A stretch of 64,000 nt of DNA from Dehalococcoidia bacterium. GTDB lineage: Bacteria; Chloroflexota; Dehalococcoidia; Bin125. Each line of letters starts with the position of its first letter. Positions within the stretch are counted from its first letter, which is position 1. Below are positions 469 through 61,889 of this stretch, piece after piece. The notes under the pieces were generated by a model. It had not been told where the DNA came from, did not search any database, and was given only the letters and a program-made list of their open reading frames with translations. Both the position numbers and the translations under genes were made by a program. The stretch spans positions 248,001 through 312,000 of the forward strand of contig JAJDTU010000001.1 of the NCBI GenBank assembly GCA_022826965.1. The letters run 5' to 3'.

Positions 469-894
469 ATGCCGCAGTTCCCCTCCGTTGAATGGTTCGA
501 AGCGCTTCGCGACACCGTTCAGGACGACCCGCACTGGCGCGATTTCGGGATGATGGACTGCGCCATGGGCGTCAATGTGGGCGAGACCACGATCAAGCTC
601 GTCTTCGACGGCTACGAGATCCCGGAGATCGCGGATATCTCCAGCTCCACCGATGAGGAAGACCTCGACTTCACGCTCGTGATGCCCGAAGACCGCTGGC
701 AGGAAATGATCGAGAACATCCAGAACAACGGCCACGCCGATCTGCATCACACCCTCAACACGATCGACCTCGAGAGTCCGGAGGAACTCGCAAAGGGCGA
801 GGACTACACCCGCCGAGACCTCTTCTATCGCTTCAACCAGACCCTCCAGGACTTTTTCGACGCGTCGTCCTCGGTAGAGACGACCTTCGCCTAG
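469..894 (+). CDS. SCP2 sterol-binding-like small protein
   Basis: A 141-residue protein with no signal peptide or membrane segment. The opening P-S-V-E-W-F-E-A-L-R followed by a D-P-x-W block and a compact alpha/beta pattern (V-G-E-T-T-I-K-L-V-F-D-G) is typical of the SCP2/alkyl-sulfatase-dimerisation-like fold, which binds hydrophobic ligands or acyl-CoAs. An in-frame GTG at 436 exists, but the ATG at 469 follows a GGAGA-like site and begins exactly at the family's usual N-terminus. A role in lipid or acyl-CoA binding is inference; the gene stands alone between unrelated neighbours. Confidence 0.6.
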   Translation: MPQFPSVEWFEALRDTVQDDPHWRDFGMMDCAMGVNVGETTIKLVFDGYEIPEIADISSSTDEEDLDFTLVMPEDRWQEMIENIQNNGHADLHHTLNTIDLESPEELAKGEDYTRRDLFYRFNQTLQDFFDASSSVETTFA

Positions 895-4698: not shown

Positions 4699-4729
4699 CA
4701 CGATCTCCAGTGAATCGCTGGAGATCGTG
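4699..4729. other. Perfect 12-bp stem hairpin in the leader
   Basis: CACGATCTCCAG, a 7-nt loop (TGAATCG), then CTGGAGATCGTG. Only a weak T-rich stretch (GTGTTTCC) follows, so it is a poor intrinsic terminator but could be an RNA structural element or a protein-binding site in the leader of the CoA-transferase gene. Confidence 0.6.
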
Positions 4730-4808
4730 TGTTTCCACTGCCGAAAAAATTTTTCGCCGAAAACCTGAAACTTGCAAGATCGACCCACGTCCGAACAATC
4801 CCAACGAG

Positions 4809-6074
4809 ATGCATCACGCCCTAAACTCCCAAACCATGCCGCCCCTCACCGGACTCCGAGTCCTCGACCATGGCCACGTCTGGGCCGGCCCCCTGCTCGG
4901 CATGTTCCTCGCCGATCTCGGCGCCGAGGTCATCAAGGTCGGCGCGCCCCACCGACTCTCCGGCGTCTCGATCGGCGGCCAACGCGCCCCTGTCGGCTCG
5001 ATCGGCGGCGACCGCGGCTCCACGCCGGCCGACGATCCCCGCGCTTTCCACGGCCTCGACCGCGGCAAGAAGTCGATCGCCATCCACCTCGGCGATCCGC
5101 GCGGACGCGACCTCTACCTCGAGTTGGTCGAGCGATCGGACATCGTCTTGGAGAATTTCTCGCCGCGCGTGATGCCCTCGCTGGGGCTCTCCTACGACGT
5201 GCTCTCCGACGTCAATCCCCGGCTCATCATGGTCGCCCTGTCCGCCTCCGGCGCGACCGACGGTCCCTGGCGCAACCTGGTCACCTACGGACCCTCCCTG
5301 GCCGCCCTCTACGGGCTCAAGTCGCTGCTCGGCTATCCCGACGACCCACAACCGCGCGAGGACACCGCCGACCTCGACCCGACCGCCGCCGGCCACGCCT
5401 TCGTCGCCCTCCTCGCCGCGCTCGAGTATCGCGAACGCACCGGTCGCGGCCAGTTCATCGACCTCGCTCAGGGTGAAGCGACGCTGCAGCGCGCCGCCCG
5501 GCCCTTGATGGACTGGCTGCTCAACCGGCGCGACGCCGGACCACAGGGCAACCGGAGTTCGGCCATGGCGCCGCACGGCGTCTACCCCGCACTGGACGAG
5601 GACTCGTGGCTGGCGATCGTGGTGCGCTCCGACGACGAGTGGTCGGCGCTCTGCGAGCTCGCCCCACACCTTGATCAACCCGATTGGTCAACCATGCGAG
5701 GCCGTCTCAACGACCAGGACGCGCTCGATGACGCCGTTGCGAGCTGGACTCGAAACTACGAAGCGATGGAGTTGAGCATCCAGCTCCAGGGCGCGGGCGT
5801 TCCCGCCTTCCCGATGATGGATCCGACTGCCCTGCTGATCGATGAGGACTATGCCACCCTGTCCCACGCGAACATCGACCTCAGCGCTGAGGCCGCCGAG
5901 CCGCTGCGCGGCGGATCGCTCTACACGGGCACCCCATGGAAGATGGCCCGAAGCCCGGCCGCGCTCACGGCGCCGATTCCCAACCGCGGCGAGCACGATG
6001 ACGAGATCTACGGCGATCTCCTCGGCCTCGGCGAAACCGCCAGAGCCGAGCTTCGCGAGGCCGGCGTCATCTGA
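4809..6074 (+). CDS. CaiB/BaiF family CoA-transferase (class III)
   Basis: About 421 residues from the ATG at 4809; an ATG at 4836 (M-P-P-L-T-G-L-R-V-L-D) is an alternative and begins right at the family domain. Family hallmarks are the opening G-L-R-V-L-D-H-G-H-V-W-A-G-P, A-D-L-G-A-E-V-I-K-V, and the D-L-D-P-T-A-A-G-H block holding the candidate catalytic Asp that forms the acyl-enzyme anhydride. These enzymes move CoA between carboxylates by a ping-pong or ordered mechanism. It is the first of three CaiB genes here. The donor and acceptor acids cannot be read from the sequence. Confidence 0.9.
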   Translation: MHHALNSQTMPPLTGLRVLDHGHVWAGPLLGMFLADLGAEVIKVGAPHRLSGVSIGGQRAPVGSIGGDRGSTPADDPRAFHGLDRGKKSIAIHLGDPRGRDLYLELVERSDIVLENFSPRVMPSLGLSYDVLSDVNPRLIMVALSASGATDGPWRNLVTYGPSLAALYGLKSLLGYPDDPQPREDTADLDPTAAGHAFVALLAALEYRERTGRGQFIDLAQGEATLQRAARPLMDWLLNRRDAGPQGNRSSAMAPHGVYPALDEDSWLAIVVRSDDEWSALCELAPHLDQPDWSTMRGRLNDQDALDDAVASWTRNYEAMELSIQLQGAGVPAFPMMDPTALLIDEDYATLSHANIDLSAEAAEPLRGGSLYTGTPWKMARSPAALTAPIPNRGEHDDEIYGDLLGLGETARAELREAGVI

Positions 6075-56420: not shown

Positions 56421-57662
56421 TTAGATCACGTGCGCCCGTCGCAACCGCGCCAGCTCCCGCGCACCCACCCCAACCTCCGACAACACCTCAGCCGTGTGCT
56501 CCCCCAGCAGCGGCGGCCGACGCCTGATTGCCCAGGGACTCTCGCTCAGCCTGTACGGCGCACCCGGCAGTCTGACCGGCTCTTCGAACTCCGGATGCTC
56601 AATCCCCGACCAGAACTCTCGAGCTCTGAGGTGCTCCGACTCCCCCACCTCACCGATCGTGTGGACCGGTTGGAACGAAATGTGATTCTCCCCGAACAGC
56701 TCCATCAGCTCGGCCCTCGTGTGTTGCTTCATCCAGGGATGCCAGAACGCATCGAGCTCGTCCGTGTGCTGGAAGGCGAGCCAGCGATTCTTCAGCCGCT
56801 CATCGTGCTGCCACTCCGGGTCGCCCAGCAGCTCCATGAACCGATTCCACTGGCGATCGACCATCGTGATCACCTCGTAGTAGCCGTCCTTGACCGGCGT
56901 CACCTGCCATGGATAGAACGCGTTCATGTGCGTCCCGGCTCGGCCGCGCGCCTGTCCGGTGAATACAAACGGCGCCACCCCCGCGCCGGCCATCACGTTA
57001 CTGATGATGTCCACGATCGAGAGCCAGGCATGCTGCCCCAGGCCGTCTTCTCGGGTCGCTCGGCGAGCCAGTATGGCGGCGATCGCGGCGTGGATCCCAC
57101 CCTGGAACTGCGGCGCGTCGTGCGGCAGACCCAGCGGCGCGCGGTCCGGATCGCCGATCTTGAACGAGATCCCGCTGGCCAGCGACGCAATCAACGACTC
57201 CGATCGCCAGCCCTCGCGTTGAGTGCCGATGCCAAAGACCGTGATCGTCACCTGGTTGAGCTCGGGCGCGCCCGTCGAGAGCTCCTCCCAGGTCAGGCCA
57301 AGCTCTCGTTGCTCTGCGATGTGGCGCGAGCTGATGACGGTCCCGCAGCGCTGCGCCAGATCGCGGTAGAGCCGACGACCGGCCGCGCATCCCAGATTCA
57401 GCGTCACGCTGCGCTTGTTCGTGTCGAGGAAGAGATGAAGCCCGCTGCGTTCGCGACCCGGCTCATCCGCCGCGAACGGGGACTTCCGCCGAACCTCGTC
57501 ACCGCCCGGGCCCTCGACCTTGACCACCTCCGCGCCGAGGTCCGCCAGCAGCTTGCCCGCGTATGAAGCGGCGATCCCGCCGCCGTCTTCGAGCACGCGC
57601 ATGCCCGCCAATGCCCCGATCGACGTGGACCTTGCCGGCTCCGTACTCGTCTCGGTCGTCAT
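56421..57662 (-). CDS. CaiB/BaiF CoA-transferase (third in window)
   Basis: A 413-residue class III CoA-transferase: A-G-M-R-V-L-E-D-G-G-G-I-A-A-S-Y-A-G-K-L-L-A-D-L-G-A-E-V-V-K-V is the N-terminal nucleotide/CoA block in shortened form, followed by N-K-R-S-V-T-L-N-L and, further on, a Q-F/H-A-A-I-A-A-I-L-A-R region near the usual active-site Asp. The Asp (D) in P-H-D-A-P-Q-F is the nearest acid to the usual position, so activity should be checked. It diverges from the SDR at 57722. Confidence 0.88.
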   Translation of the reverse strand: MTTETSTEPARSTSIGALAGMRVLEDGGGIAASYAGKLLADLGAEVVKVEGPGGDEVRRKSPFAADEPGRERSGLHLFLDTNKRSVTLNLGCAAGRRLYRDLAQRCGTVISSRHIAEQRELGLTWEELSTGAPELNQVTITVFGIGTQREGWRSESLIASLASGISFKIGDPDRAPLGLPHDAPQFQGGIHAAIAAILARRATREDGLGQHAWLSIVDIISNVMAGAGVAPFVFTGQARGRAGTHMNAFYPWQVTPVKDGYYEVITMVDRQWNRFMELLGDPEWQHDERLKNRWLAFQHTDELDAFWHPWMKQHTRAELMELFGENHISFQPVHTIGEVGESEHLRAREFWSGIEHPEFEEPVRLPGAPYRLSESPWAIRRRPPLLGEHTAEVLSEVGVGARELARLRRAHVI

Positions 57663-59604: not shown

Positions 59605-59630
59605 TGTAGGGGCGACCCTTGCGGTCGCCC
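59605..59630. repeat. Short hairpin repeat, family E
   Basis: GTAGGGGCGACCCTTGCGGTCGCCC: a GGCGACC/GGTCGCC stem with a CTTGC loop, in the convergent gap between the MBL gene and the first ferritin-like gene. This short form is common in G+C-rich genomes; I saw only this copy here. Confidence 0.7.
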
Positions 59631-59654
59631 TCGCTAGCTCGTGCGAAAGCGCGG

Positions 59655-60749
59655 CTAGACCGGGATCTTCTCGACCTCTTCCGCCGGCATGATCCCGGCC
59701 CACTTGCGAAGTTCCTCGTTCAACCGATCATCACGATCCCCGAGGTGGCATTGGCGCAGGTAACCGAGATACGTCTCGACCTGTTCGCGTCGCAGCTCCG
59801 CCACGTCCGCCATCGCCTCTTCGGCGCCCTCGCGCCCGTCGCCCATGATCACGGCGAGCGCGCTGTACAGTGTGTCGTCGCCGTCTTTGGCCAGGTACCA
59901 CTCCGCCTTGTTCAGGTAGCGATGGACCTCCTCGCGCCGAACGGGCTCCCTGAGCATCAGGTAACGCATGTGATCGACGAAGTACGCCAGGTGTCGCTCG
60001 ATGTCCTTCTGGCAGAGCTCGTAAATCGTGCGCTCCGCGTCGGTCTGGGCCAGTTGCTCGCCGCGGCGCAGCAGCCCGATCAGCATGGCGTCGTGCATGA
60101 TCGACGCGACACAAAACTCGCTGAATGTGTATGACTGTGTCAGCGGCAGGAACTTCCAGTTGCGGCCGCCCCGACCCAGGCCCCCGCCGTTGGCCAGCGC
60201 CCGCTTGCGCCAGACCTCGTACAGCCGCGCCCCATCGAACACGACCGTGCCCAGGAACAGCTTCACCTCGATGTAGCCGTACGAGATTTCCTGCAGCCAG
60301 CGACCGGTCGTCTGTGCCTTGGTCCACCCGTATTCCGACATCAGCGTCGCGATCTGACACACCGCACGCTCGAGGTCTGAGCCAATCGGCGCCAGCGTGT
60401 CCCAGGGGATGTCGGCCGACGAGTTCCAGCGATCGGCGATGGCGTCCTCGTACAGACCAGCGCAGAGATCCGACCAGACTTCCGACTTGTTGAAGATCGA
60501 GTAGCCCATCTGCTCGGTGCGTGTGTCGGGAATCGCGCCGCGCGGGATCTCGGTGTTGTTCTCCCAGTACTCCGGCACTTCTCCGTAGACATCGACGTTG
60601 AGGTACTCGAAGCGCAGGCCGCCGTTCTCCGGCGTCGCCTGTTCCTTCGCCTTGACCCCCCAATGCACCGGCGTGTCGAGCCAGTCCGATGGCAAACCGG
60701 ACTCTTCCAGTCGCTCCTTGGCCGCAGCGACGACGTCGTTCTCAGGCAT
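59655..60749 (-). CDS. Ferritin-like diiron-family protein, most metal ligands lost
   Basis: A 364-residue helical protein and clear paralogue of the next gene (W-N-S-S-A-D-I-P-W-D-T-L, W-R-K-R-A-L-A-N-G-G-G-L). Where the neighbour has E-x-x-H in two helices, this one has G173-A-R-L176 and I250-E-R-H253; the helix-3 Glu is D220 and the helix-1 position is Gly. So at most a His and an Asp remain. It should keep the fold but is unlikely to bind a diiron centre. Probably a structural or regulatory partner. Confidence 0.8.
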   Translation of the reverse strand: MPENDVVAAAKERLEESGLPSDWLDTPVHWGVKAKEQATPENGGLRFEYLNVDVYGEVPEYWENNTEIPRGAIPDTRTEQMGYSIFNKSEVWSDLCAGLYEDAIADRWNSSADIPWDTLAPIGSDLERAVCQIATLMSEYGWTKAQTTGRWLQEISYGYIEVKLFLGTVVFDGARLYEVWRKRALANGGGLGRGGRNWKFLPLTQSYTFSEFCVASIMHDAMLIGLLRRGEQLAQTDAERTIYELCQKDIERHLAYFVDHMRYLMLREPVRREEVHRYLNKAEWYLAKDGDDTLYSALAVIMGDGREGAEEAMADVAELRREQVETYLGYLRQCHLGDRDDRLNEELRKWAGIMPAEEVEKIPV

Positions 60750-60771
60750 GTCGGTTCTCCTCCGCAGACAA

Positions 60772-60801
60772 AAGCGGCGCGGGCGTCAACCCGCGCCGCT
60801 T
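60772..60801 (-). terminator. Hairpin with T-run between the two ferritin-like genes
   Basis: On the minus strand: AAGCGGCGCGGG, a 6-nt loop (TTGACG), CCCGCGCCGCTT and then TT(GT): a 12-bp stem ending in a short T-tract (T4 including the stem). It lies after the stop of the upstream diiron gene and 23 nt before the ATG of the second. It may be a partial terminator or attenuator that sets the ratio of the two proteins. Confidence 0.5.
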
Positions 60802-60821
60802 GCGAACTCCGATGACTGGTC

Positions 60822-61889
60822 CTAGTTCTCGTCGAGCGCGCCGACCAGGGCCGAGTGCAACCGGCCGCTCTCGAGCCGGCCGCCGAGTCCCGCCACGTCC
60901 AGCCGGTGCAGATACTCCAGCACCTGCTTGCGCCGCACGTGCCAGAACAGCCGCCAGCCCTCGTCGACGTCGCCGTCGCCAAGCAGGTAGATCAGCGCGC
61001 CGGCGAGGCCCGGGTTGGCCTGGTCCGGGTCAACGATCGTGTTTTCGAACATGTCGAGCGTCCAGTGGACTTCCTCGGCCTTGTCCGGTTCGTTGTCCAG
61101 CGTGTACTTGAGGTGCGTCACGCCGAACGCCACGTGCCGCGACTCGTCCTGTGCGGCCAGGCGGAAGATCCTCTTCTCGGCCTCGTTGTGCGCAATCAGC
61201 TCACCCAGGCGGAACAGCGACTGGACGAAGCCCTCGCCCAGGATGTGCAGCATCGAGGACATCTGCGTGAAGTCCTCGGCTTCGAGGATCTGGCGCAGAC
61301 CGCCACCGCCGCCCTGCAGCAGCAGGCCGCCGCCGTTGGCCAGCGCGCGCTTGCGGAACACGTCGGTGTGACGCGCTTCATCCATCACCTGCGACATCAG
61401 GAACAGGCCGGACTCGAAGTGGTCGGCCGCGATTCTCGGTAGCCACTTGCCCGGCACGTCGCCTGCGATGAACTCGACCTCGGTCAGCGAGGTGCAGAGC
61501 TGCGCCATGGCGCGCTCGATGTCCTCGGGCAGCTCGTCCAGAGTGTCCCAGGGGATGTCGGTTGCCGACGACCACTGGCGCGAAACGGCCTCGTCGTACA
61601 GCAACCCGGCCGAGTCGGAGAACGTCTCCGTCGCATCGCCGAGCACCCACGGCGTCATCCGCGGGGTCGCCCCCTCGGGCGGAGCCGCCCCGCGCGGTCG
61701 CGCCGAACTGTCTTCGGAGGTCGCCGGAATGTCGCCGTACAGCGTCTTGTTGATCTGCTGCAGGGTGAGACCCTTGCGCCCAGGTTCAGCCGAGACGCCC
61801 CACTCCGTATCCAGGTTCAGCCAGGAGAGATCAAGCTCCGGAACCTCCGGCTCAAGTTGCAGTTCGTCCAGCTTGTCAGCGGTCACCAT
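60822..61889 (-). CDS. Ferritin-like diiron protein with a complete ligand set
   Basis: A 355-residue protein from the ATG at 61889 (TGAGGAG 7 nt upstream). The four-helix diiron site is visible: Glu near 137-139 (T-E-V-E-F), E171-A-R-H174, E219 (G-E-G-F-V-Q), E249-S-R-H252. This is the E / E-x-x-H / E / E-x-x-H layout of ferritin-like oxidases, R2-like and AurF-like oxygenases. A Gly-rich loop (L-Q-G-G-G-G-G-L) sits between helices 2 and 3. A degenerate paralogue is the next gene on the strand. The substrate is unknown. Confidence 0.85.
   Translation of the reverse strand: MVTADKLDELQLEPEVPELDLSWLNLDTEWGVSAEPGRKGLTLQQINKTLYGDIPATSEDSSARPRGAAPPEGATPRMTPWVLGDATETFSDSAGLLYDEAVSRQWSSATDIPWDTLDELPEDIERAMAQLCTSLTEVEFIAGDVPGKWLPRIAADHFESGLFLMSQVMDEARHTDVFRKRALANGGGLLLQGGGGGLRQILEAEDFTQMSSMLHILGEGFVQSLFRLGELIAHNEAEKRIFRLAAQDESRHVAFGVTHLKYTLDNEPDKAEEVHWTLDMFENTIVDPDQANPGLAGALIYLLGDGDVDEGWRLFWHVRRKQVLEYLHRLDVAGLGGRLESGRLHSALVGALDEN

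Follow-up and report, generated by a model that had tools for sequence, protein, structure and literature searches.

The window, the whole stretch of 64,000 nt that was analysed, carries two paralogous genes, here named A and B, and a third gene, C, which sits 59 kb away from them (Table 1). A and B lie head-to-tail on the minus strand, as the original prediction had it, and their products align over 322 residues with an identity of 34% (E 7e-54). The segments IPWDTL and RKRALANGGGL, from which a common origin had been proposed, match exactly in both proteins. A purine-rich ribosome-binding site is found 5' of each gene.

Table 1. Coordinates of the genes and of the A-B junction in the window.
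Feature	Position	Strand	Description
Gene A	60822..61889	-	R2-like ferritin-fold oxidase (putative), 355 aa; diiron ligands complete (E139, E171xxH174, E219, E249xxH252)
A-B intergenic stretch	60750..60821	-	72 nt; 12-bp hairpin (arms 60772-60783 and 60790-60801) and ribosome-binding site of B
Gene B	59655..60749	-	Paralogue of A without metal site (G141, G173/L176, D220, I250, H253), 364 aa
Gene C	469..894	+	SCP2-related protein, 141 aa; sole copy in host genome

The full E, ExxH, E, ExxH set claimed for the upstream protein is present in A. The losses described for B at the two ExxH motifs and at the third glutamate are likewise found, together with one that had been overlooked, the change of the helix-1 glutamate to Gly141. 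In all, four glutamates and one histidine of A are gone from B, and His253 is the sole ligand to survive.

The hairpin between the genes had been suggested to set the ratio of A to B. It is seen in some congeners only, it was not flagged by a terminator scan of the window, and perfect 11-bp hairpins occur at five further places in the window; it was rejected as a ratio-setting element, being neither conserved across the genus nor terminator-like by the scan. Unrelated palindromes often fill the A-B junction of related genomes, for instance long near-perfect ones such as GTAGGGGCGACC...GGTCGCCCC in five congeners (G009, G010, G011, G012, and G013), and a motif resembling these junction palindromes lies at 59605-59635 of the window. 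Scanning the window for Rfam families and tRNA genes returned nothing, and a dispersed repeat pattern searched for in the window had no match. Two ORFs that resemble CoA-transferase family III by eye are located at 4710-6074 and 56421-57662; this family recurs around A/B loci and is probably part of the background of these genomes.

Fold, metal ligands and selection in A and B

Neither A nor B reaches a Pfam or NCBIfam cut-off. The NCBIfam R2lox model NF006200 gives A a score of 26.9 bits, below the curated cut-off of 194, and has no match to B. Ribonucleotide reductase R2 (PF00268) is matched weakly by 20 of the 43 A members (best E 1e-4) and Pfam Ferritin, also weakly, by three of the 43, while the multicomponent monooxygenase hydroxylase Pfam family is absent among the matches of these members. 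Against PDB chains, the A profile matched VlmB-type and R2lox/R2 proteins, and its ligand motifs align with those of the VlmB type. The AlphaFold models (mean pLDDT of 86 for A and 87 for B) match VlmB, aldehyde deformylating oxygenase, R2lox, R2, and methane monooxygenase alpha with Z scores of 20-24, the best matches being 8wvr and 6d9f (Z 23.7 and 23.3 for A; 23.5 and 23.1 for B). A combines an R2lox-type fold with all six dinuclear ligands, and B has the fold only. By homology and modelled fold, A looks like an O2-activating dinuclear metalloprotein. In R2, the radical tyrosine stands four residues beyond the histidine of the first ExxH motif; A has an invariant phenylalanine there (F178), as does class Ic R2.

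The ligand sets are bimodal across homologues, with 100 reading EEHEEH and 65 degenerate. In non-redundant counts, which leave out a few divergent rows, all six ligands are kept in 46 of 46 A homologues, and none of the four glutamates is kept in 43 of 44 B homologues. No homologue with a full ligand set was found in the B clade, in keeping with the original view of B as a protein stripped of its site. The six former ligand positions of B fall between the 33rd and the 80th percentile of variability, about that of an average B column, and thus no alternative metal site is conserved in B, whose own conserved residues include W58, Y155, and G156 (A numbering).

In a maximum-likelihood tree, the root of which is uncertain, 44 rows of B group as one clade with a support of 100/96. 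One degenerate row falls outside this main clade. It belongs to a divergent A-B-C cluster of family f30 (L086 9092-12060 / L085), whose B has a degenerate set of its own (QYHNTH) and may have lost the metal site independently. The outgroup of the tree is a distant ferritin-like ORF of approximately 277 aa with a full EEHEEH set, present in the host genome (L102 7440-8270, C4) and at L103. Within the genus, the median dN/dS is approximately 0.05 for A and 0.09 for B, with one A row (L019) left out, indicating strong purifying selection on B.

Gene order, co-retention and the third gene

Co-occurrence of the two genes in a constant order had been proposed as a check, and where the two are adjacent the order was constant: the 73 distinct adjacent same-strand pairs comprise 70 of A followed by B, three of A followed by A, and none of B followed by A, so that A comes first in 70 of 70 adjacent A/B pairs. 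The distances of A and B correlate in a mirror-tree comparison with r of 0.92, against a shuffled maximum of 0.14. When partners were swapped within genomes, which controls for species history, the observed fit was reached in 0 of 5000 draws (11 genomes carrying two or three A-B pairs each); with one genome per lineage, the true A/B pairing ranks 1 of 288. The host genome itself (3.0 Mb, 14 contigs), whose closest named relatives are MAGs of Dehalococcoidia/Chloroflexota, possesses three A-B pairs.

A sample of 245 Dehalococcoidia-class genomes was found to contain the A/B family in 81 and to lack it in 164, presence being called from the best score with the A profile and with the B profile. 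With five genomes of divergent forms set aside (G023, G048, G075, G105, and G119), every A/B-holding genome that is at least 90% complete has both genes. A occurs without B in G049, G174, and G242, and B without A in G142 and G236 only, all five being less than 90% complete. Both genes are retained even where they lie on different contigs (G018, G019, family f59). Several A genes and no B are present in G174; tandem A-A arrangements occur at L221 and L215, and A-A-B-C at L220. Tepidiforma flava is a cultured host with an A-B pair, and at one of its loci (G274, L216 2796-3843) the A of one pair is broken up across three reading frames next to an intact B, which reflects either a damaged gene or assembly indels.

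The third component, overlooked in the original prediction although it lies in the same window, was found through the small ORFs that follow solo A genes; automatic neighbour clustering was overwhelmed by frames antisense to A and B. In Myxococcota, Gammaproteobacteria, and Actinomycetota, the short ORFs that follow A constitute one family, C, which is also located 3' of B, both in A-B-C clusters and where A sits elsewhere. In the window, C is followed on its 3' side by a short lysozyme-like ORF and then a thyX-like ORF, as judged by eye. Strong C matches (E below 1e-30) were identified in 77 of the 81 A/B holders of the class sample vs two of the 164 other genomes, counts that share ancestry. 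The holders without a strong match are G012, G023, G040, and G049, among which the A-B contig of G040 is only 3.6 kb long, and the two non-holders with C (G024 and G145) are incomplete. All three genes are absent together from G016 (family f1, genus g3) and G020 (family f2, genus g6), both more than 90% complete. Similarly, in a phylum sample of 400 genomes, A was present in 17 of 17 C holders and C in 17 of 19 A holders, and two genomes of another family have A, B, and C in a row.

The copy number of C is mostly one per genome, even beside three A-B pairs. The distinct cluster arrangements, counted together with clusters cut by locus ends, are A-B (57), A alone (30), A-C (19), A-B-C (17), B-C (13), and B alone (5), besides single instances of A-B-C-C, C-A-B, A-A-B-C, and A-A. 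About 50 distinct clusters have C directly beside A or B, and C and B are each sometimes found away from A. No reductase, other conserved neighbour or redox partner was recognised among the sampled neighbours of the examined A/B loci.

Among the Myxococcota, Gammaproteobacteria, and Actinomycetota, most A-bearing genomes that were reached show the A-C arrangement and lack B, and all A-C loci belong to phyla other than Chloroflexota. The exceptions outside Chloroflexota are A-B-C-C in a Pseudomonadales genome (L180) and C-A-B in a proteobacterial cluster (L217). As A occurs without B in three other phyla, it can evidently work in the absence of B, which is an added partner, not always required by this type of enzyme. 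The A-C and A-B-C gene orders suggest that a tandem duplication of A, within an A-C unit, gave rise to B. The regular occurrence of one gene without the other, named beforehand as refuting the pairing, is seen in one direction only: A without B is the usual state in these phyla, while B without A is limited to the two incomplete genomes. On the genetics, an obligate A-B partnership as first proposed is well supported by the single origin of B, the general loss of its metal site, the fixed order, the mirrored trees, and the co-retention even of unlinked copies; the A genes that lack B in three phyla stand against it.

C of the window has no match in Pfam, and its family does not reach the gathering cut-off of PF02036 (SCP2), with a best E of 0.12 in two of 41 members; the Pfam SCP2 model found no SCP2 family member in the host genome. 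The C profile, however, finds seven weak relatives in other genomes, and the four of these that were scanned all pass the PF02036 cut-off. A profile-profile comparison of C with all seven gave E 1.1e-10 over 130 columns, and by this measure C is related to SCP2 proteins. SCP2 domains form cavities that bind lipids, and UbiJ reportedly binds the hydrophobic intermediates used by hydroxylases (PMC6747719); by analogy with UbiJ, the cargo of C would most likely be a hydrophobic substrate or ligand.

A putative oxygen-dependent system

The combined evidence of genes and models favours, with a probability of about 0.62, a reading in which A, B, and C belong to a single O2-dependent metalloenzyme system, A and B forming a heteromer and C supplying a hydrophobic ligand. 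A, a four-helix bundle of the R2/R2lox/VlmB type, would bind a dinuclear metal centre (Fe/Fe or Mn/Fe) and perform the oxidation chemistry. B, a duplicate of A that lost the metal site, would be its non-catalytic heteromer partner and may stabilise A, shape the access of substrate or dock C. C would deliver a hydrophobic ligand or substrate to the enzyme, in the way reported for UbiJ in ubiquinone hydroxylation. A more tentative extension is a new and widespread class of modular oxygenases, in which one SCP2-like carrier C serves several diversified pairs of A and pseudoenzyme B, with B docking the carrier; in that case, Chloroflexota would have expanded the pairs to oxidise different hydrophobic compounds.

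Alternatively, B could be an independent protein that has acquired a new function, such as ligand binding or docking with C, and that is tied to the pathway of A but forms no heteromer with it. The 13 loci and the family f59 in which B lies away from A but beside C are consistent with such a role, as are the own conserved residues of B and the restriction of A-C loci to other phyla, C being unseen beside solo A where B exists. This explanation is nevertheless unlikely, as the pair-specific co-evolution within genomes, the constant order of adjacent pairs, and the very close fold and profile similarity of A and B suit a shared dimer interface.

It is less probable still that B acts as a regulator or assembly helper that binds A transiently and serves metal loading, stability or protein-level control. 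The lack of a conserved alternative site in B agrees with a helper, and in yeast the diiron centre of Rnr2 depends on Rnr4 for its activation and stability (PMC2704937); Rnr4 itself, however, is a stable subunit, and nothing here separates a helper from a permanent heteromer. There is very little likelihood that A, rather than being an oxygenase, handles iron or removes peroxide as a ferritin-like protein, with C unrelated to its chemistry: its ferritin-like fold and the few weak Pfam Ferritin matches point that way, but the closest folds are those of R2lox, VlmB, aldehyde deformylating oxygenase, and R2, and A co-occurs strictly with an SCP2-related protein. A decaying duplicate, as the missing metal site of B might indicate, or a chance neighbourhood is refuted by the single B clade of 44 rows, the fixed order and mirrored trees, the strong purifying selection on B, and the co-retention of A and B across many families.

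The putative heteromer of A and B would add a further case of a diiron enzyme retained with a metal-free twin, a question studied in few systems so far, and the role of the pseudoenzyme could be followed along a natural series of A-only, A-B, and unlinked forms. The proposed metalloenzyme system has no Pfam or NCBIfam family and is found in a third of the sampled class genomes and in several phyla.

Comparison with known systems

The statement that no described system has this architecture was mistaken, as it is preceded by yeast Rnr2/Rnr4 (PMC2704937), Plasmodium falciparum R2/R4 (PMC3824934), and methane monooxygenase alpha/beta. Yeast Rnr4, which is without three iron ligands, forms a heterodimer with Rnr2 (PMC2704937), and the R2/R4 of P. 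falciparum is a mixed complex of R2 paralogues (PMC3824934). Rnr2/Rnr4 resembles the putative A/B heteromer in joining an R2-fold protein that can bind metal with a metal-less paralogue. Unlike Rnr2/Rnr4, A/B is bacterial, is not a subunit of ribonucleotide reductase, is encoded by tandem genes with several diversified pairs per genome, has F178 and no tyrosine at the R2 radical position, and is linked to an SCP2-related third component.

The multicomponent monooxygenases share with A/B a metal-free paralogue beside the diiron subunit, a likeness that holds here at gene level only. In methane monooxygenase, a diiron alpha subunit is accompanied by a homologous beta subunit without a diiron site. 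The fold of A matches the MMOH alpha subunit with Z of 20-21, whereas A and B have no Pfam match to that family and are both about 360 aa long, and no reductase, gamma or effector genes of the methane monooxygenase type were recognised among the A/B neighbours examined.

R2lox resembles A in its fold (Z about 22), its ligand set, and a helix-1 Glu rather than Asp. It binds a fatty acid (PMC6399176), and one R2lox has been reported as an alkane oxidiser (PMC10867098); unlike A/B/C, no metal-less or SCP2-like partner of R2lox is described in the open-licence papers searched. The VlmB azoxy synthase and the Kitasatospora aldehyde deformylating oxidase (8wvr and 6d9f), the best structural matches of both A and B, share an identity of only 14-18% with them, and the metal-less partner and the SCP2-related component set A/B/C apart from these enzymes, as far as searched. 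UbiJ and UbiT are, as C is proposed to be, SCP2 accessory proteins, theirs acting in ubiquinone biosynthesis, whereas C falls below the Pfam SCP2 threshold and its presumed partner is R2-like. No description of the A/B/C system was found in the open-licence literature. An R2-fold protein with a metal-less duplicate is thus already known, and what is new here is the family, its breadth, its diversified pairs, and the link to an SCP2-related protein.
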